DNA of 55,364 nucleotides from an uncultured Ignavibacteria bacterium (GTDB taxonomy: Bacteria > Bacteroidota > Ignavibacteria > Kapaibacteriales > UBA2268): NCBI GenBank assembly GCA_903862655.1, contig CAIOZA010000086.1:1-55364 (forward strand). The letters are read 5' to 3'. The translations under genes and the position numbers were made by a program. The notes under the pieces are model-generated. The model had not been told where the DNA came from. It saw nothing but the letters and a program-made list of their open reading frames with translations, and did not search any database. Below are positions 9,041-51,089 of this stretch, piece after piece (the first letter of the stretch is position 1; every line of letters starts with the position of its first letter).

Positions 9041-11197
9041 CTACAGCTTCACAAATTTGCTGACTCGATCACCAATACGGACAAAATAGATGCCGATAGC
9101 CAAGCTGGAGACATCTATTTGTAGGGGTAATTCATGAATTACCCCTACAGTCAATACAGTTTGTCCGAATATATTGAGGATTTTTATATCGCTTTGTAAG
9201 GGCGAACGGCCGTTCGCCCCTACAGATATTTCTATGAAGTCGGAAGCAGGATTGGGTGTTACGACTATCTCATCGCTTGGTTTTGGCTTTTCTTCTACTG
9301 ATACGAACTTATCTCTGGAGCGGTAGAGACCACCTTTCACTGCACCAACAAAATAGAAACCATTTGGAGATATAGATAATAAGTTGATACTGTTGTGGTT
9401 TATACCGGATGATATATTATCCCAAATAACACCTTTATTTGAAGACCTATATACCTGCCACTTTTGTTGCTTTGAATCCCAGTCCCATTTAACATAATTC
9501 CCAAGAGAATCAAAATTATTACTTGCATCCGATGAAAAAACATCGCTTTGAGCCCACTTTCTGCCATTATCGGTAGTCTTTAGGCATAAAGCAAATCCCT
9601 TTTCACCTCGGGGATCAAATGCGATAGCACCAATATCCCAAAAGCAGTTACCACCCCCATTGTAATAATCCGTCATTTTTTCCCAAGTATCACCATCATC
9701 TGTTGAACGGTAAACAATGCCACCATAGGCTCCTCTAAAGATATGTCCTTCAGAATTTGCAGAAAAACAATTGGTTACATCATCATCTGGTAGTGAATTC
9801 AATTGCCATGTTTCACCATGATCAGTAGAATAGAAATATCCACCTGCACCAATAGCACCAGCAAAGATATAACCTCTTTTGTTCTCAAACAAATCTGAAA
9901 TCAATGGAGAATAATTATTCGAACCTAAGTTAAAATGTACCCATGTATTTCCTTCATCAGTAGATCGAAAGATCCCACCAATATCATTTATTGATCCAAC
10001 ATTCCCTGAAGTATATACAAAACCATTACTAGCTACAAGGATATTAAAAAGTTGTTGGTCTCCTAGACCCATATATTGCCATGTTAACCCATTATCCGAA
10101 GATTTATGAACTCCATAGGCAACAGAATAAATATTATTTTTTTTATCATAAGACACATCATAAATATTCTGAGCAGAAATTCCTTTATCTTTCCTAATCC
10201 ATTCTTTTTTTAATGTGTCAAAAATAAATACAGATCTAATATTAGAGTTCCAAAGTGATTTTTTGTTAGTGTAAACACCATAACCCAAACTTATATTATT
10301 TTTATATAATCCTTTCCAGGATTTTCCATAATTGTAACTTATATAAATTGAATCGTCTAAAACATTAGGAAATAATAAAAGTAAACTGTCTTTTTTAAAA
10401 AATTTACCTTTACTTTTCAATGAAATATCCCAGGATTTACCAAAGTCACCGGAAAAGTAAGTTAACTTATTATCACCACAAGATCCAGCTATATTGCTAT
10501 CTGAAATACTAACATACCAAATGCGGGGAGATTTAATAATTCTTAAATTTGATAAATTTAAATCATAAACTAAAATAAAAGAGTACTGATCATTAGTAAT
10601 GTAATTTACCGCTAGAATTACAATAGAAATATTGTTTTCTTGAATTTTAATTTCAGAAATTAGAAGTGAGTATTTTGGATCTTTTTCTAACAAAGTCCTG
10701 ATAATTTTAGAAGAATCAATTTTTAAACTAATAGGATTGATAGAGTAAACATTTATGGTATCATCTCCCTGATCATATTGTTCAACAAATAACATTCTGT
10801 TAGAGGCATCAATATCAAAAAAAAGAGCTTCATTTATTCCATTATCAGTGTTTATTTTATCAAAATATTTTATACCTTGAGTAGAATCAGTCATATAAAT
10901 GATACTTGTTTTATAAGTTTTATTGTTTTTTAATGCACCAATGATTGATCCTTTTGAATTAACTTGTAAGTTACTTACTCTTGAATCAAAAAAGTATAAA
11001 AACCAATTTTCACCTTCATCAATAGATTTATAAACTCCATTCGAAGTGTTAACAAAAAAATTTCCATTAGTCTCATTGTATGAAATTTTTGTGCAATAAC
11101 CACCATTTGGTCCACCAACATAGTCCCAAAAAGGCTCAGTAGCTTTGAGGGCTGAGACAGAGAATAGTAAAGTCAATATAATGAGGAGCTTTTTCAT
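9041..11197 (-). CDS. Asp-box (BNR) repeat T9SS cargo protein
   Basis: This 718-residue protein has a signal peptide (about 1-19), then at least eight Asp-box turns of the S-x-D-x-G-x-x-W type, such as SIDEGENWF (58-66), SSDNGLTWQ, STDEGNTWV, STDHGETWQ and STDDGDTWE. These form beta-propeller blades as in sialidases and VPS10-like photosystem proteins. The C-terminus (about 640-718) is a T9SS sorting domain ending VGDRVSKFVKL-like (IGDRVSKFVKL). Enzymatic sialidase residues are not evident, so it is more likely a structural or binding surface protein. Its sorting domain contains two translated DNA palindromes, encoding GANGRSPLQ and GVIHELPLQ. Base composition is more AT-rich in the first two thirds than at the 3' end. 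No strong ribosome binding site precedes the ATG. Confidence 0.85.
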   Translation of the reverse strand: MKKLLIILTLLFSVSALKATEPFWDYVGGPNGGYCTKISYNETNGNFFVNTSNGVYKSIDEGENWFLYFFDSRVSNLQVNSKGSIIGALKNNKTYKTSIIYMTDSTQGIKYFDKINTDNGINEALFFDIDASNRMLFVEQYDQGDDTINVYSINPISLKIDSSKIIRTLLEKDPKYSLLISEIKIQENNISIVILAVNYITNDQYSFILVYDLNLSNLRIIKSPRIWYVSISDSNIAGSCGDNKLTYFSGDFGKSWDISLKSKGKFFKKDSLLLLFPNVLDDSIYISYNYGKSWKGLYKNNISLGYGVYTNKKSLWNSNIRSVFIFDTLKKEWIRKDKGISAQNIYDVSYDKKNNIYSVAYGVHKSSDNGLTWQYMGLGDQQLFNILVASNGFVYTSGNVGSINDIGGIFRSTDEGNTWVHFNLGSNNYSPLISDLFENKRGYIFAGAIGAGGYFYSTDHGETWQLNSLPDDDVTNCFSANSEGHIFRGAYGGIVYRSTDDGDTWEKMTDYYNGGGNCFWDIGAIAFDPRGEKGFALCLKTTDNGRKWAQSDVFSSDASNNFDSLGNYVKWDWDSKQQKWQVYRSSNKGVIWDNISSGINHNSINLLSISPNGFYFVGAVKGGLYRSRDKFVSVEEKPKPSDEIVVTPNPASDFIEISVGANGRSPLQSDIKILNIFGQTVLTVGVIHELPLQIDVSSLAIGIYFVRIGDRVSKFVKL
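9120..9149. repeat. Perfect 30-bp palindrome translated within a T9SS sorting domain
   Basis: The sequence tgtaggggtaattcatgaat followed by its mirror half is a perfect inverted repeat. Read on the minus strand it encodes VGVIHELPLQ in frame in the sorting domain. A degenerate form lies at 33673-33702. It shares the ends gtagggg/cccctac with the palindrome at 9196-9223. Confidence 0.9.
9196..9223. repeat. Palindrome encoding NGRSPL within a T9SS sorting domain
   Basis: The core gggcgaacggccgttcgccc (9200-9219) is a perfect 20-bp palindrome. With its flank it is identical over 44 bp (9180-9223) to 33734-33777, which lies in another T9SS sorting domain. On the minus strand it is translated as GANGRSPLQ. 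Confidence 0.9.
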
Positions 11198-30634: not shown

Positions 30635-32128
30635 TTACATCTTCAATTTGAATCCATATATTATAGAGAGAGAAGACTTCCAGTCATTTACCTGCGATTT
30701 TTGTGGGTTAAGTACTGTTTTGAAATAGCGTCCATCTGCTCCTGCTGTGAAGGACAGCCAAGTGAAAATATCAAATTGAGTATATAAACGAGCATAGCTA
30801 AGGAGTCCGTCGTTTGTTCCGCCAAGACCTAGCCTTCCTGTTATCGATATTTTATTGAAATCAACAAAAACCTGTTCGTAGAAGGCTGAGCCCCAAAGTA
30901 TCTGTTTGTTTACATTGACAGTATATGGAAATGTGATACCTGTTCCATCGGAACCAGTACCAAATTCCTGGATTTTAGGATGACTTGAGGAATAATCAGA
31001 AATTTTCAGAATCCCTGACGATGGAATGCGACCGATTCTTTGATCATCGAAGGAAAATTGAGTGAAACCAAGTTCTAAACCAACTCTCTGAGACTTTGAT
31101 ATTTCGCAGGCAATGCTCTGAGAGAAATTTGAAACCACAGAAGCATTTTTGAGATTCGTGTTGTCGAATCCTGTGTTAACGAGATTAGTCCCAAAGAAAG
31201 AACCAAGCTGAATATTGGTAGTATTGCCATAGTAGTTTTGCTGATTGAATGAATTAGGCATATTCATCGATCCAACCGGCTGTTGTGTATTGACTATCAT
31301 TTGTTTTGGAAGCGGATTCAACTGAACTGCACTATTTCCTGCATCAGGCTGAAAATCTAAGTTAGAAGCTTTAGAGTTAGATGGCATTGGGGCTAAATTC
31401 TGCTTTAACTGGATATTAGCACCACCAGAAGAAATCCTTGAGTCATTGTTTTGCTGGATCATGGGTTGAAGCGGTGCAAATTCTTCAGAAACAGATTCTG
31501 TTGCTATAGTATTTACCGTGTTATCTGCCGACCTCAAGCCATATTCTGCATTTTCTGCAGGGCTGGAAGCAAGAATAATAGAGTGTGAATTTGTTTCAGC
31601 TGCCACATTTTCTTTAATCGATTGTGCAGCTGGCAATAATGAACGTGAAGCTCTATCGAAAGAAACTTCTCTTGGATTAAGCATGGTAAGATCTTCCGGT
31701 GCATCCGTTTCAATTTGGGAGTCATTGAATGATTTGTCCAGAGTATGTCTTTCCTGCTCAAGAATAAGAGCCATTCCGGTTTTGTCGTTAAACATCTGAA
31801 AATCGTTTATTCTGAGAAAACCGAAAAGCATTACAGCCAGAACTGCTGTAGCAAAAGCATATCTTCTTTTGCGGGGATAGACTGTATCGCCAACGATTGG
31901 CTGATTAGCCAGGATCTTCATCAGAATTTTATCTTCAGTTTCACCAAGCAGAATGGTTGATGGTCTGATGTTCTTAGCTTCTTCCTTAATAGCGGAATGA
32001 ATAAACACGTCGGTATCGAAGGCTTCCCTAGCGGAATTGTCTTCGGACAGAATGTTTCTCAGCTCGCTATCCTCCTGAGGAGTTAGTTCACTATCGACGT
32101 ATTTCGATATTAAATCATCGAGATTCAT
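30635..32128 (-). CDS. Anti-sigma factor fused to an outer-membrane barrel-like domain
   Basis: The 497-residue protein begins with a cytoplasmic anti-sigma region (about 1-85: LISKYVDSELTPQEDSELRN), has one membrane segment (about 90-106), then a long low-complexity, Asn/Gln/Ser-rich periplasmic stretch (about 115-305). The last about 190 residues alternate hydrophobic and polar in short strands (ISITGRLGLGG, SFTAGADGRYF) and end SIIYGFKLKM, as in small outer-membrane barrels. It overlaps the end of the ECF sigma gene by 14 bp, so it should hold that sigma in check. AGGA lies 6 bp before the ATG. The anti-sigma part is well supported by context; the barrel-like end is inferred. Confidence 0.78.
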   Translation of the reverse strand: MNLDDLISKYVDSELTPQEDSELRNILSEDNSAREAFDTDVFIHSAIKEEAKNIRPSTILLGETEDKILMKILANQPIVGDTVYPRKRRYAFATAVLAVMLFGFLRINDFQMFNDKTGMALILEQERHTLDKSFNDSQIETDAPEDLTMLNPREVSFDRASRSLLPAAQSIKENVAAETNSHSIILASSPAENAEYGLRSADNTVNTIATESVSEEFAPLQPMIQQNNDSRISSGGANIQLKQNLAPMPSNSKASNLDFQPDAGNSAVQLNPLPKQMIVNTQQPVGSMNMPNSFNQQNYYGNTTNIQLGSFFGTNLVNTGFDNTNLKNASVVSNFSQSIACEISKSQRVGLELGFTQFSFDDQRIGRIPSSGILKISDYSSSHPKIQEFGTGSDGTGITFPYTVNVNKQILWGSAFYEQVFVDFNKISITGRLGLGGTNDGLLSYARLYTQFDIFTWLSFTAGADGRYFKTVLNPQKSQVNDWKSSLSIIYGFKLKM

Positions 32129-32681
32129 AAATTTCCTTAACCAAAGGTTGTAACATTTGTCTTAAAATCAGCCTTGCCCGGTGAACCCGGACCTTAGCCA
32201 ATGAAATATCAATATCTAAAATTTCTGCAATTTCCTGATAGGAGCATTCTTCATACTCGCGCAGGACTAAAGTTTCGCGCAAGGACAGAGGCAGAGCTGC
32301 AATTGCTTTTTCGATAAACTGTTTTGCACCGAAGTCTTGATCGCTTTCAAAAACGGGAGCCTGATAATCTTCTTCGAATGATACATTCTCTTTTTTGGTA
32401 CGAAGATAATTCAGACAGGTTCTGTGGGCTATTGTATAGACCCAGGACTGGAAGTTAGAACCTTTGAATTCGAGCCTGTGCTCATAGACTTTAATGAAGG
32501 TTTCCTGGAAAGCATCATCGGCAATGTCTTTGTCGTTGAGAATTTTGAAACAGTAGCGGTAGATAGACTGGCTGTACTTATTATACAATAAATGAAAAGC
32601 CTGAGCGCTTCCTTTCTGCATCTCGGAAACAGCTTTCGTAACGGCTTTATCATCGATTATATTTGATTTTTTAAAAAACAT
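32115..32681 (-). CDS. ECF-type RNA polymerase sigma factor
   Basis: This 188-residue sigma-70 relative has only regions 2 and 4, as in ECF factors. Region 2 (about 22-95) includes YRYCFKILNDKDIADDAFQE and the -10-binding FQSWVYTIAHRTCLNYLR; region 4 (about 125-180) includes LPLSLRETLVLREYEECSYQ and EIAEILDIDISLAKVRVHRA. It directs RNA polymerase to envelope-related genes once its anti-sigma partner, encoded by the next overlapping gene, lets go. The T9SS cargo, TonB receptor, giant protein and PorV-like genes downstream on the same strand are the obvious candidates for control. Confidence 0.95.
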   Translation of the reverse strand: MFFKKSNIIDDKAVTKAVSEMQKGSAQAFHLLYNKYSQSIYRYCFKILNDKDIADDAFQETFIKVYEHRLEFKGSNFQSWVYTIAHRTCLNYLRTKKENVSFEEDYQAPVFESDQDFGAKQFIEKAIAALPLSLRETLVLREYEECSYQEIAEILDIDISLAKVRVHRARLILRQMLQPLVKEIYESR

Positions 32682-32856
32682 TTCTATCTACGATTTTCAA
32701 ACTTTTACCATTGTTTAATACTAAGACACATCATAATAATAAAAAGTTACAAATTTTATTAAAAAATATTTATCAAAATTAATTAATTATGGGGTGAAAT
32801 CATAAGAAATAATAATATAAGGCACTTAGGAGGATATTTATTTGGGGGGATGGGGA

Positions 32857-32886
32857 AAAGAAAAAAAGGGGTGATTAACCCCTTTT
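32857..32886 (-). terminator. Rho-independent terminator beyond the HigBA cassette
   Basis: An 8-bp stem (aaaagggg/cccctttt) with a 7-nt loop is followed on the minus strand by seven T. It lies just past a leftover of a T9SS sorting domain and seems to have been that gene's original terminator, now also serving higBA. Confidence 0.88.
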
Positions 32887-32891
32887 GCTCA

Positions 32892-32976
32892 ATATTTAAT
32901 AAACTTTTGAACTTTATCCCCAATCCGAACAAAATACATGCCCGGAGGCAAGCCGGAAACATCAAGAATTGGTAAA
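32892..32976 (-). pseudogene. Remnant of a T9SS sorting-domain 3' end (distal copy)
   Basis: Read on the minus strand this encodes PILDVSGLPPGMYFVRIGDK followed by VQKFIKY and a stop: the last strands of a T9SS sorting domain with nothing before it. It matches 33616-33669 over 54 bp with two mismatches (32910-32963). The antitoxin stop codon lies inside it at 32962-32964, in another frame. Confidence 0.85.
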
Positions 32977-33246
32977 GAGTACCTCTGGATTCCTTTCTGC
33001 GATTAGGAGGAGAACATTTGCAGGACCAGTAGGCTTTCTTCTCCCTTGTTCCCAATTTTTTAAAGTACCGACACTAATGCCGAGAAGATCGGCAAATTTA
33101 TCCTGAGATAGATTGTGTTTTAGTCTGATTCCCTTTATTTCATTTGATTTTATTTCAAATCTTCGTGAAGGCTTGATTTCATTTTTTAATATTTTGCCGG
33201 CATCATGAAGGCTTTCGACAAGATCATCGAACATTTCTTTCTTCAT
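32962..33246 (-). CDS. HigA/NadS-like XRE antitoxin
   Basis: This 94-residue antitoxin has a helix-turn-helix over about residues 38-70: IKGIRLKHNLSQDKFADLLG, then VGTLKNWEQGRRKPTGPA, the ending typical of the HigA/NadS group. It would bind and neutralise the toxin encoded just upstream and repress the operon. Its start overlaps the toxin stop by 4 bp (ATGA). Its last codons run into the copied piece of a T9SS sorting domain, so the antitoxin C-terminus may have changed on insertion. Confidence 0.92.
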   Translation of the reverse strand: MKKEMFDDLVESLHDAGKILKNEIKPSRRFEIKSNEIKGIRLKHNLSQDKFADLLGISVGTLKNWEQGRRKPTGPANVLLLIAERNPEVLFTNS

Positions 33247-33563
33247 TTTGAGAATTCCTCTTCAATAATTTTATTTAATATTTTTATTTGCTTTTGAGAT
33301 AAATCAATACGTTCCGATTTTGAATATGCAAATAACATTAGAATAGTATCTTTCAAATCGACCCAAAAATAAATAATCCTGATTCCACCACTTTTTCCTT
33401 TTGCTTTGGTTTTCCATCTGACTTTTCTTAAGCTATATGTTCCTTTAATAACCTTACCAAAAGCCGGTTCATTTACTATGAAATTTTGAAAATCCCGATA
33501 TTCTTCGCTGTTCAATAAGTCAAGAATTTGTTTCGTAAATATTTTTGTTTCAACTATTATCAT
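33243..33563 (-). CDS. HigB-like RelE-superfamily toxin
   Basis: The 106-residue product resembles the HigB2/YgjN type of RelE-fold toxins, ribosome-dependent mRNA interferases. Visible features are the N-terminal TKIFTKQILDLLNSEEYRDF, the strand pair KVRWKTKAKGKSGGIRIIYF and LMLFAYSKSERIDLS. The toxin-first gene order fits HigBA. It starts 28 bp after the stop codon of a broken T9SS gene and is probably co-transcribed with that gene's promoter unless it keeps its own. Confidence 0.92.
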   Translation of the reverse strand: MIIVETKIFTKQILDLLNSEEYRDFQNFIVNEPAFGKVIKGTYSLRKVRWKTKAKGKSGGIRIIYFWVDLKDTILMLFAYSKSERIDLSQKQIKILNKIIEEEFSK

Positions 33564-33591
33564 GTAAGTCTCTGACGTAGTAGACTAAAAA

Positions 33592-33985
33592 TTATTTAAT
33601 TTTTATAAACTTCCCAACTTTATCCCCAATCCGAACAAAATACATGCCCGGAGCCAAGCCCGAAACATCGAAACGTAGTGGCAATTCATGGATTGCCTCT
33701 ACAGAGAATACGGTTTGTCCATAAATATTATAGATTTTTATATCGCTTTGTAAGGGCGAACGGCCGTTCGCCCCTACGGATATTTCTATGAAATCTGAGG
33801 AAGGATTGGGAGAAACAATCAATATCGATGTTATTATTTTCTTCAACAAATGTTGGTTCTTCAGTAAAAATTGATTCAAAAAATGAAGGTCTTCCACCGT
33901 TTGAATCAGCCAAAAATAAATTACAAAAAGTAGGATGTTTGGATTTACCTGCTATTAATATTCAAAATATCTTTTCTAAAATTTG
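33592..33985 (-). pseudogene. Broken 3' end of a T9SS cargo gene (proximal copy)
   Basis: A complete T9SS sorting domain, from VSPNPSSDFIEIS to VRIGDKVGKFIKIK, is preserved, but only a little of the protein ahead of it. That part, ending in GGRPSFFESIFTEEPTFVEE, lies in another frame, with the shift near 33815-33835, and an in-frame TGA stands about 80 bp before it. The piece is thus a truncated and frameshifted remnant. The sorting domain carries both palindromic insertions (NGRSPL and IHELPL) seen in the gene at 9041-11197. Confidence 0.8.
33734..33777. repeat. 44-bp repeat containing the NGRSPL palindrome, second copy
   Basis: This stretch is identical to 9180-9223 and includes the perfect palindrome gggcgaacggccgttcgccc. 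Both copies lie at the same place in a T9SS sorting domain and are read in the same frame. Confidence 0.92.
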
Positions 33986-34107
33986 TCACACTCGTATATA
34001 CTAAGACACATCAAATCGCAAAACGTCTCACAGAAAATAAAAATACATTGCTATTGTGCTTTGTGTGCGACGATACAGACTTTGAGAAAAACAGCTAAAA
34101 ATCAAAA

Positions 34108-36313: not shown

Positions 36314-36561
36314 AATATTTCCAATAATTTTTGAGTTAATTTTTAAATATATATTTTTTGTTAGGTCAAGCAGGATGCGTGACCTACTATCTTAGGGGCT
36401 GTATAAAAAAGAACTTAATATCTAAACTTGTCATTCCGAACGAAGTGAGGAATCTAAACTTTATAAATACTGGATTCTCACGGTCTCTGCGCTCCCTCAG
36501 AATGACAAAATCAGAGAAAATGACACTTTTAAGACAACCTCATTTCATCATTTTTTATAAT
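36314..36561. other. Intergenic region with REP-like repeat
   Basis: No gene is seen. It holds the second close copy of the REP-like element at 36430-36510 and lies between a giant T9SS cargo gene and the double-OmpA gene on the same strand. Confidence 0.7.
36430..36510. repeat. Dispersed REP-like element, copy 2
   Basis: It begins gtcattccgaacgaagtgag and ends ccctcagaatgac, matching 508-590 along its length with a few changes in the middle. Confidence 0.82.
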
Positions 36562-48868: not shown

Positions 48869-48919
48869 AATTAAACGTCTAACAGATAGTAAATATGATC
48901 TTTGTTCATAGGAGATAAA

Positions 48920-50227
48920 ATGGACTTTCAGAAATTGACTATTAAAGCGCAGAACGCTGTGGCTACTGCTCAGGAAATTGCATCGAATTACGACAATCAG
49001 GCTTTGGAGATTATTCATCTGTTTGCAGCATTAATTCAGGATTCAGCCGGTGTATCTTCTGATCTGATACAAAAGCAGGGTACAAACCTCAATCACCTGA
49101 AAATTAAAATCAACGAGGAACTTGAAAAAATGCCGAAAGTTGCTGGCGGATCAGGTCAGTACATGTCGCCACAGCTATCCACATTAATAGATAATTCAAT
49201 CAAGATCGCCAAAACAATGCATGATGAGTACGTGAGTACTGAACATCTTTTGATAGCAATACTAGAAAGCAGTTCGAATGCCGGCAAGATATTAAAAGAA
49301 CAGGGTATAACAAGTGACGGTCTGAAGCAGGCTGTGGTTCAGATCAGAGGCGGCAGAGCAGTAACAGATCAGAATCAGGAAGAAACATACAATGCGTTGC
49401 GTAAATATGGAATTATGCTTAACGAAGTGGCTAAGGAAGGCAAGATTGATCCGGTAATCGGCAGACAGGAAGAAATACGGCGTGTACTGCAAGTTCTTTC
49501 ACGAAGAACAAAGAACAACCCGATATTGATAGGTGAGCCCGGTGTGGGCAAAACAGCTATTGTTGAAGGGATAGCCCAGAGAATAGTTTCAGGCGATGTA
49601 CCGGAATCCCTGAAAACAAAGCAGGTGGTAACGTTAGACATGGGAGCTCTTGTTGCAGGGACACAATTCCGTGGACAGTTCGAAGAAAGATTGAAAGCCG
49701 TGATTAAGGAAGTTACAGATTCAAACGGACAGATAATTCTCTTCATTGATGAAATTCATACTCTTATAGGAGCCGGGGCAACAACAGGTAGTATGGATGC
49801 AGCAAATATACTGAAACCGGCCCTTGCTCGCGGGGATCTGAGATGCATCGGTGCAACAACAATCGATGAATACCACAAGTATTTGGAAAAGGATGCTGCA
49901 TTGGAGAGAAGATTTCAGAAAGTAATTATTGATGAACCTAATGTCGATGATACTATTTCAATTCTGCGGGGATTGAAGGAACGTTATGAAGTTCATCATG
50001 GTGTCAGGATAACTGACGCATCACTTATTGCAGCGGCAGAACTATCAAACAGATATATCACCGATAGATTTTTACCCGATAAAGCGATAGATTTGGTTGA
50101 TGAAGCAGCAAGCAGACTTAGGCTTGAGATAGATTCAATGCCCGAAGAACTTGACACAATCGAAAGAAAAATCAGACAATTGGAGATCGAAAAGCAGGCA
50201 TTGATTAGAGAGATAAATATAAAATAA
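48920..50227 (+). CDS. clpB: ClpB-like disaggregase, truncated after the first ATPase domain
   Basis: The 435 residues cover only the first half of ClpB (normally about 860). Present are the N-terminal Clp repeat domain (about 1-145), the first AAA+ domain with Walker A GEPGVGKT (205-212), Walker B LFIDE (about 274-278) and arginine-finger ALERRFQ (328-334), and the first few turns of the middle-domain coiled coil ([17 protein letters not shown]). Then comes a stop. The middle domain and second AAA+ domain are missing, and no trace of them lies downstream. AGGAG precedes the ATG at 48920. It could not disaggregate by itself; it may be a relic, or a partial protein alongside a full ClpB elsewhere. 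The last 64 bp are repeated at 51026-51089. Confidence 0.88.
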
Positions 50228-50231
50228 AAAG
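50168..50231 (+). repeat. 64-bp direct repeat, copy at the clpB 3' end
   Basis: This covers the last 20 codons of the truncated clpB gene, the stop codon and four bases. It matches 51026-51089 at 61 of 64 positions. The PIN toxin-antitoxin cassette lies between the two copies. Confidence 0.95.
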
Positions 50232-50277: not shown

Positions 50278-50775
50278 TTGGTGGATAAAAAGCTTAAAAT
50301 ATATTTAGATACTTCCGTGATAAATTTTCTGTTTGCTGATGATGCACCAGAGAAAAAGGAAGTGACTATTGATTTTTTTGAGAATTATGTTTTGAAAGAA
50401 ACATATCTCGTCTATATTTCTTCTATCGTTATTGAAGAAATTGAGAGAACAAATGATTTAATTAAACGTGAAAAATTGCTAAATATTCTTAAAAGATATC
50501 CAATAAAATTTATAGAAAATATAGATTCCGAAGAAGTACTTTTTTTAGCCAAAGAATATTTAAATAATAATATTCTTCCAAGGAATTCCGAAGCAGATGC
50601 TTTGCATGTGGCAATTTCGACTATAAATCAAATTGACATTTTATTATCATGGAATTTCAAGCATTTAGCGAATTACCAGAGAAAGAAGAAAATTCAGATA
50701 GTAAATTTACAAAATAATTACACGTACCCTATCGATATTTTAACTCCAATGGAGGTTCTAAATGAAAACGCATAA
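50278..50775 (+). CDS. PIN-domain toxin
   Basis: A 165-residue PIN-fold RNase. The acidic active-site residues are visible: Asp in IYLDTSVINFLF (about 9-20), Glu in IVIEEIERT (about 48-56), and Asp in NSEADALHVAIS (about 103-114) and IDILLSWNFKHLANY. The WNFKHL ending is typical of the subgroup that pairs with a small antitoxin. The start codon is TTG at 50278 or GTG at 50281; no ATG is in frame. It overlaps the following small gene by 14 bp. Its base composition is more AT-rich than clpB and it sits between direct repeats, so it was probably acquired. Confidence 0.88.
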   Translation: MVDKKLKIYLDTSVINFLFADDAPEKKEVTIDFFENYVLKETYLVYISSIVIEEIERTNDLIKREKLLNILKRYPIKFIENIDSEEVLFLAKEYLNNNILPRNSEADALHVAISTINQIDILLSWNFKHLANYQRKKKIQIVNLQNNYTYPIDILTPMEVLNENA

Positions 50776-51019: not shown

Positions 51020-51089
51020 ATGGACAAAATCAGACAACCGGAGATCAAAAAGCAGGCATTGATTAGAGAGATAAATATAAAATAAAAAG
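51020..51089 (+). repeat. Direct repeat of the clpB 3' end beyond the PIN cassette
   Basis: This is the second copy (51026-51089) of the repeat at 50168-50231, with changes at three positions. It opens a short frame from the ATG at 51020 that would encode [20 protein letters not shown] and one more residue before the same stop codon. It is probably not a real gene but a relic of the duplication. A terminator follows directly. Confidence 0.92.

Follow-up and report, generated by a model that had tools for sequence, protein, structure and literature searches.

Toxin-antitoxin pairs between duplicated pieces of neighbouring sequence in a Kapabacteria-like family of bacteria

Toxin-antitoxin (TA) pairs of a Kapabacteria-like family are found with duplicated neighbouring sequence on their two sides, an association that is well supported when their loci are compared with ordinary windows of the same genomes: the flanking-repeat signature is present at about 30% of the TA loci examined and at fewer than 1% of the ordinary control windows, and it can be tested by counting, by strain comparison and by transformation assays. 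The layout occurs in the 55,364-nucleotide stretch of DNA analysed here (the window), contig CAIOZA010000086.1 of an uncultured Ignavibacteria bacterium, where a higBA pair lies between two T9SS sorting-domain tails. We consider it rather probable that TA pairs with flanking duplicated neighbour sequence, the higBA pair of the window included, are one phenomenon, in which a TA unit is added at a gene end through additive recombination with a gene stub.

In the window only higB and higA stand between the two copies of the direct repeat, which are 91% identical and spaced by 706 nt (Table 1), and neither the open reading frames nor a domain search placed a transposase or integrase in the inserted unit. 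The TGA stop codon of higA overlaps the first bases of the distal repeat copy. An earlier reading of this DNA, made from the sequence only, had counted 52 matches over 54 positions of the repeat (32910-32963 and 33616-33669), about 700 bp from copy to copy with higBA between them, and had noted that the distal copy is followed by a strong terminator, and all of this was borne out: that stretch has two differing positions, and a terminator stem (32886-32864) is followed by a T run, the RNA of 32963-32850 having a folding energy of -34.8 kcal/mol (z -3.1). The same reading took the proximal copy for the 3' end of a host gene, which it is not, as an intact gene is absent; the sorting-domain ORF there is a remnant of 101 aa without a cargo domain, and the frames upstream of it are broken, none being longer.

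Table 1. Features of the two TA loci of the window (window coordinates).
Feature	Coordinates	Strand	Evidence or remark
T9SS C-terminal sorting domain remnant, no cargo domain, proximal "host" copy	33592..33897	-	Por_Secre_tail 44.7 bits
Proximal repeat copy	33601..33669	-	69-nt direct repeat
higB, RelE/HigB-like putative toxin, 106 aa	33243..33563	-	RelE PF06296 22.8 bits, cut-off 27
higA, NadS/HigA-type HTH antitoxin, 94 aa	32962..33246	-	NF041265.1 NadS 61.7 bits; HTH_3
Distal repeat copy, orphan sorting-domain tail	32895..32963	-	69-nt direct repeat
Intrinsic terminator 3' of distal copy	32864..32886	-	stem and T run
Left copy of 64-nt repeat, end of truncated clpB	50168..50231	+	95% to 51026-51089
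PIN-domain putative toxin	50278..50775	+	PF01850 E 3.6e-4, 21.6 bits, slightly under cut-off 23.6
Putative antitoxin, 61 aa	50762..50947	+	small ORF overlapping PIN gene
Right copy of 64-nt repeat	51026..51089	+	95% to left copy

HigBA is a putative NadS-type type II TA system as judged from its domain matches: HigA scores barely over the NCBIfam NadS cut-off of 60 bits and also over that of Pfam HTH_3, while the toxin is a weak RelE match that stays under its cut-off and has no match in NCBIfam. Relatives of HigB in other genomes adjoin a HigA/NadS-like gene.

The two tails of the window are alike, but is the distal one a copy of its neighbour or a member of a dispersed family? The genome holds at least 150 sorting-domain matches (150 of 304 candidates were scored) and 95 matches to the last 27 residues of the domain; 65 tails from among these 95, the eight weakest being among those left out, were compared in 2080 pairs, and the distal copy was compared with the 64 others. 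Its identity is 91.3% over 69 nt to the proximal neighbour, 90.1% over 71 nt to a tail on another contig (C15:65412) and 89.7% over 68 nt to a further tail there (C15:68281). By identity the window pair ranks 95th among the 2080 pairs, and in a FastTree tree C15:65412 and the distal copy fall together (support 0.88). Because the 3' ends of T9SS sorting domains are so alike genome-wide, the distal copy fits unlinked tails as well as it fits its neighbour, and the genome-wide comparison gave no support for the distal tail as a demonstrated copy of the proximal one, except that their longest identical stretch, at 38 nt, is the fourth longest of the 2080 pairs. The sorting-domain copy at 9041, which the sequence-only reading had used as its yardstick, was therefore a poor choice; the window pair really is alike, but the unlinked C15 tails match equally well. 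That reading had also named an unrelated sorting-domain gene as a source of the distal piece that would speak against it, and this came part of the way true, in that the piece could, by the C15 identities, the rank and the tree, derive from another sorting-domain gene.

On these comparisons a duplication at the higBA locus of the window is possible. The chances are finely balanced, leaning slightly against, that the window copies instead belong independently to a dispersed family of sorting-domain tails, higBA lying by chance with a decayed T9SS gene on one side and a stray tail on the other, and local gene conversion having made the copies alike. The 38-nt identical stretch is hard to place in such an account, as is the recurrence of the same sandwich between sorting-domain ends, seen again in this genome around a DUF2442 gene for which no partner was recognised (L060) and around the pairs at L161 and L172 (presumably DUF4258/DUF2283 pairs), and around a higBA pair at L032; the clustering of the distal copy with the C15 tail and the modest identity rank are what it would predict, and only two of 18 short-frame tails elsewhere, again L161 and L172, are preceded by a TA-like pair by eye. 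The other short-frame tails are preceded by unrelated genes, other repeats or a contig end (L173, L176 and L177 are near one).

Two further candidates for this layout were rejected, since the spacers of about 500 bp between two sorting-domain ends at L168 and L171 are a non-coding dispersed repeat and not a TA pair. A non-coding dispersed repeat of about 400 nt stands directly upstream of the sorting-domain tail at L168, L171 and L173 in genome G000 (L168 and L171 are 90% identical), and at L160, L162-L167, L169, L174 and L175 of the same genome stray sorting-domain tails, about 75 nt long and in many cases with an abrupt upstream boundary, lie between unrelated genes. The window at 33690-33780 (-) and many sorting domains of G000 also carry in-frame palindromic repeats with the peptides VGANGRSPLQ and VEAIHELPLR, and the VGANGRSPLQ palindrome has inverted matches in other copies as well.

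The second locus of the window is a PIN pair behind clpB, which had been described as having the same design. The 64-nt repeat around the pair agrees with this description, but the host gene encodes a ClpB that breaks off after 441 aa (48902-50227 (+), covering residues 1-428 of 853) and its end is therefore an abnormal gene end. As a genome query the truncated clpB gave one other match, a Clp-like protein (50% over residues 102-439). The 61-aa putative antitoxin had no Pfam, PADLOC or NCBIfam match at the thresholds used.

How general this layout is was estimated by a survey for direct repeats on the two sides of the toxin, at cut-offs of E<=1e-8 and E<=1e-3, as follows: HigB relatives in 54 genomes of the Kapabacteria-like family gave 14 loci in 12 genomes, all 14 of which were examined, and PIN loci were taken in sets of 30 and 40 among about 150 matches listed, of which 26 and 38 have 700 bp on both sides (six were dropped). 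The labels HepT, MNT, VapB, UPF0175 and DUF3368 of genes in the surveyed loci are putative. At the stricter cut-off flanking repeats were found at 8/14 HigB/RelE loci and at 7/26 and 8/38 PIN loci (9/14, 11/26 and 12/38 at the other), which gives 23/78 combined at E<=1e-8; 46 of the 78 have no flanking repeat even at E<=1e-3. Among the controls, repeats were found at that stricter cut-off in 5 of 840 sliding windows, which overlap and whose five hits are three repeats (12/840 at E<=1e-3), and in 0/60 ORF-centred windows; these controls come from 20 stretches of 20 kb hand-chosen from the same genomes and are ordinary windows, not other insertions. The comparison is close to the check that the sequence-only reading had proposed, and it came out as that reading expected. 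Its wider idea of a common way for TA cassettes to enter behind gene ends held in so far as flanking duplications are in excess, but "behind gene ends" is too narrow, since 5' ends (L033, L110 and L200) and intergenic stretches are duplicated too.

The excess was also counted with repeat classes assigned by hand, on 75 sites in which L038-L040 and L041/L042 each count as one and removed loci stay in the denominator as misses. When sorting-domain, Rhs-like, TA-derived and dispersed repeats are taken out, 11/75 sites are left (Fisher p 1.7e-9), among them the intergenic repeats at L044, L101, L118, L188, L195 and L211, which are possibly dispersed in their genomes; when only pieces of named neighbouring genes are counted, the value is 5/75 (p 6e-4; L033, L110, L200, L038-L040 and L183). 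According to the relevant part of PMC2884548, direct repeats bound 10-18% of all small variable segments in E. coli, S. aureus and S. pyogenes, and 66-94% of those repeats are shorter than 30 bp. Against a baseline of 10% or 18% the 23/78 is still high (p 1e-6 and 0.009), whereas the 11/75 is not (p 0.13 and 0.81), so that the TA excess holds against ordinary windows and not yet against other small insertions.

Some loci were set aside in the course of this work. MazF loci from across the phylum (30 taken and 25 compared, two being too short and three left out) gave 6/25 at E<=1e-8, but they were rejected as support, the repeats being dispersed ones at L228, L229 and L242, flanking paralogues at L232, an Rhs-like piece at L247 and ambiguous at L239. 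The repeat at L042 was rejected as a target duplication; it sits within the antitoxin gene and is an old TA copy. At L104, L109, L112, L189 and L215 TA pairs lie between fragments that resemble gene ends of what we take, from motifs, to be the Rhs/YD-repeat type. Outside the family, HigB relatives are present in Campylobacterota (51-52% identity; Sulfurovum, Sulfuricurvum and two others) and in Treponema parvum (43%), a distribution across phyla pointing to transfer; of these five loci (L155-L159), the one in Sulfurovum (L155) has a flanking repeat of 88 nt at 72%, and the other four have none.

At the clean loci the repeat is a piece of a gene next to the TA pair, and that gene is still present in one intact copy. 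Where the piece is a 5' end, as for a glycosyltransferase (L033; 129 bp, 94.6%), a DNA methylase (L110; 102 bp, 91%) and a periplasmic binding protein (L200; 138 bp, 90%), the fragment precedes the TA pair, which is followed directly by the intact gene; 3' ends are duplicated at a helicase gene (L038-L040, one site), at mnmG (L183) and at a BCCP gene, where the repeat is 24 bp only (L041; E 1.7e-5). Where HigB and PIN loci have repeats, these measure 24 to 154 bp in most cases, with 273 nt at L034, a complex sorting-domain locus, and the repeats that are at least 94% identical still range from 24 to 129 bp. By eye there is no sequence common to the repeats of different loci, apart from the sorting-domain and Rhs-like families, and no linked transposase or integrase appears in the inserted units of the clean loci as judged by eye from ORF lists.

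The position of the repeats was measured in 24 hand-curated loci, a set from which the HigB/PIN loci L034, L097, L103, L118, L119, L181, L184, L195 and L196 and six MazF loci are omitted. The gap between the TA stop codon and the repeat is at most 30 bp in 14/24 (median 20.5), and it is negative in 9/24, where the similarity extends into the region of the TA stop; the median gap on the promoter side is 76. The TA pair is co-oriented with the gene at 16/16 hand-curated HigB/PIN/DUF sites (the higBA and PIN loci of the window, L032, L033, L034, L038-40, L041, L110, L112, the first pair of L154, L161, L172, L183, L189, L200 and L215), against a background of 203/282 (p about 0.005), which is compatible with the idea that the TA pair would share the transcript of the host gene. 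One MazF locus outside this count, L247, has the opposite orientation. Arrays occur as well: at L153 three copies of a sorting-domain end surround two TA pairs, and at L154 three consecutive TA pairs are accompanied by two distinct duplications, both clear, and by a third repeat that is weaker.

Alleles with and without the insert can be compared at mnmG in genus g27, where MNT/HepT and VapB are putative labels. Genome G050 (L183) has the order mnmG, VapBC, second mnmG tail, MNT/HepT, whereas VapBC is absent from G053 and G051, which have mnmG followed by MNT/HepT and a single tail copy (the query flanks overlap by 172 and 97 bp), and G052 has mnmG and VapBC without MNT/HepT. The repeat is therefore single in the allele without the insert in two sister species. 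For the higBA locus of the window, whose repeat is one of a dispersed family, no such allele was obtained. The alleles at mnmG are observed, whereas the direction of change, gain or precise loss, is an inference. The joint in G050 is at the VapC stop codon, in an mnmG-like stretch. Between G050 and G052 VapBC is 79.4% identical and mnmG also 79.4%; since VapBC has diverged exactly as mnmG has, the genus may have had it for a long time, and precise loss may have produced the empty alleles. The coding parts of the two mnmG copies of G050 are 85.1% identical, as are the distal copy and G053. Within the distal tail the 5' half has bases in common with its own mnmG that are absent in the other three species, and the 3' half is nearer G053, a mixed signal of which the first part favours a younger copy or conversion. 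No clean empty allele was seen at the BCCP site L041 in genus g27, nor an empty site in genus g23 for L039, where the G043 contig ends within the helicase gene, or for L118, where the flanks are rearranged: they are 3.4 kb apart in G040, and G042 has the repeat and the right-hand gene with a different left neighbour.

By the additive route that we prefer, a compact TA unit (about 75 bp of upstream sequence, the two genes and few bases downstream) would join at or within a gene end and would leave 25-150 bp of gene-end sequence on both sides, with one intact gene copy in the clean cases. The TA pair would arrive on a DNA fragment together with a stub of the adjacent gene, and this fragment would recombine with the resident copy of that gene, either by a single crossover of the circularised fragment or by one-sided homology, an illegitimate joint would fall close to the TA stop codon, and repeated rounds would build arrays of the form TA - gene stub - TA; higBA of the window would have come to its place in the same manner. 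Random fragment ends give no reason for a joint so near the TA stop. A comparable outcome is described in the pertinent part of PMC3240628 for E. coli, in which plasmids intended as linear DNA, one end of which carried homology, gave 56/60 clones with a PCR product diagnostic of duplication. The 14 of these that were sequenced, as that part reports, had duplications of 109-950 bp ascribed to a single crossover, and the remaining four clones were one-sided events with deletions (PMC3240628).

More tentatively, and as something that we hold to be less likely than not, we suggest that unrelated TA types may share the form of a minimal enzyme-free mobile cassette. Such a unit would run from promoter to stop, its TA genes spanning about 530-700 bp, and its stop codon would mark the joint with a stub of the target gene; it would keep the target intact by a long duplication, could be removed precisely between the repeats, and would form arrays with gene-end stubs. 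To our knowledge the movement of chromosomal TA pairs without a carrier element is an old open question. The duplication would also account for the survival of a core gene when a TA pair arrives within it or next to it, and the direct repeats offer a path to precise TA loss and to the building of arrays.

Other origins of the repeats have to be weighed against additive recombination. A broken replication fork could copy the TA unit by microhomology and re-enter upstream of its exit, thereby duplicating the stretch between; such template switching in DNA repair, which we hold to be unlikely but a serious rival, would account for the variable repeat length and for the similarity that runs into the TA stop region (the negative gaps; microhomology was taken from blast ends, without a shuffle comparison), but alone it does not explain why sister species have different TA pairs next to one and the same gene. 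It is also improbable, in our estimation, that the duplications are old, that TA-free alleles arose by deletion between the direct repeats and that the repeats are marks of reversible excision rather than of entry. The duplication itself would still require an origin under this account, and the bases that the 5' half of the distal tail in G050 shares with its own mnmG only do not suit it, though the signal is mixed by the G053-like 3' half; the equal divergence of VapBC and mnmG between G050 and G052 does suit it, and PMC2884548, where it treats small variable segments of other species, appeals to deletion between the repeats that border them.

Transposition with target-site duplication by an enzyme acting in trans would give flanking direct repeats around a compact unit, as observed, but we give it very little credence. 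The repeat lengths, from 24 bp to the single 273 nt at L034 and still variable among the most similar repeats, do not fit a transposition of fixed length, and the repeats of different loci look unrelated by eye outside the two families named above. A transposon with a fixed target-site duplication was rejected on the same inconstancy of length, and integron gene cassettes were rejected because the repeats, by eye, differ from locus to locus where a common attC-like site would be expected.

By analogy, the duplication around TA pairs resembles the "insertion with long target duplication" of restriction-modification systems, of which the original reports are said to be those of Nobusato 2000 and Furuta 2010. 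Repeat size is of the same order, about 100 bp and variable, both in the window (69 bp) and in the family survey. The insertion of restriction-modification systems with a long and variable target duplication is described in the parts of PMC3874152 and PMC1643837 that concern it; a selfish gene pair with no tie to a known mobile element and a variable duplication of the order of 100 bp are common to both, the duplicated sequence here being probably target sequence as well, but there strains of one species were compared and here several TA types at genus level. A ParDE-like TA pair of Microcystis likewise lies behind a gene and between two direct repeats, of 152 bp (PMC7935541); those repeats, unlike ours, are identical, contain an inverted repeat and start 14 bp past the gene end, and the passages concerned do not read them as a target duplication.

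In Vibrio T6SS immunity-gene arrays, as the section on them in PMC5361080 relates, successive insertions displace old gene 3' ends downstream, and homology-facilitated illegitimate recombination was proposed. The process may be a related one, with gene 3' ends pushed downstream, but there effector genes are displaced, whereas in our clean cases the neighbouring gene is intact. Chromosomal integron cassettes, too, are small gene units, TA pairs included, separated by repeats (so described in the portion of PMC2654758 that deals with them), but the repeats found here are pieces of neighbouring sequence and not a common site. Literature searches that paired toxin-antitoxin with target duplication, with flanking repeats or with Kapabacteria gave no such survey among the best matches as judged by titles and abstract openings, with few subscription papers covered.

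Two other features of the window were noted. The sequence TGATGTGTCTTAGTAT is present at 32718-32733 and at 33998-34013 (-) and has five exact copies in the genome; with up to two mismatches it has 16, against 4 for the reversed control. It stands upstream of an ECF sigma gene (32115-32681) and of the sorting-domain remnant, several other copies are near sorting-domain genes, and from these positions it is possible that it is a sigma-factor promoter for T9SS cargo. The other feature is an 83-nt repeat that begins GTCATTCCGAACGAAGTGAGGAATC and is found at 508-590 and 36430-36512 with 89% identity.
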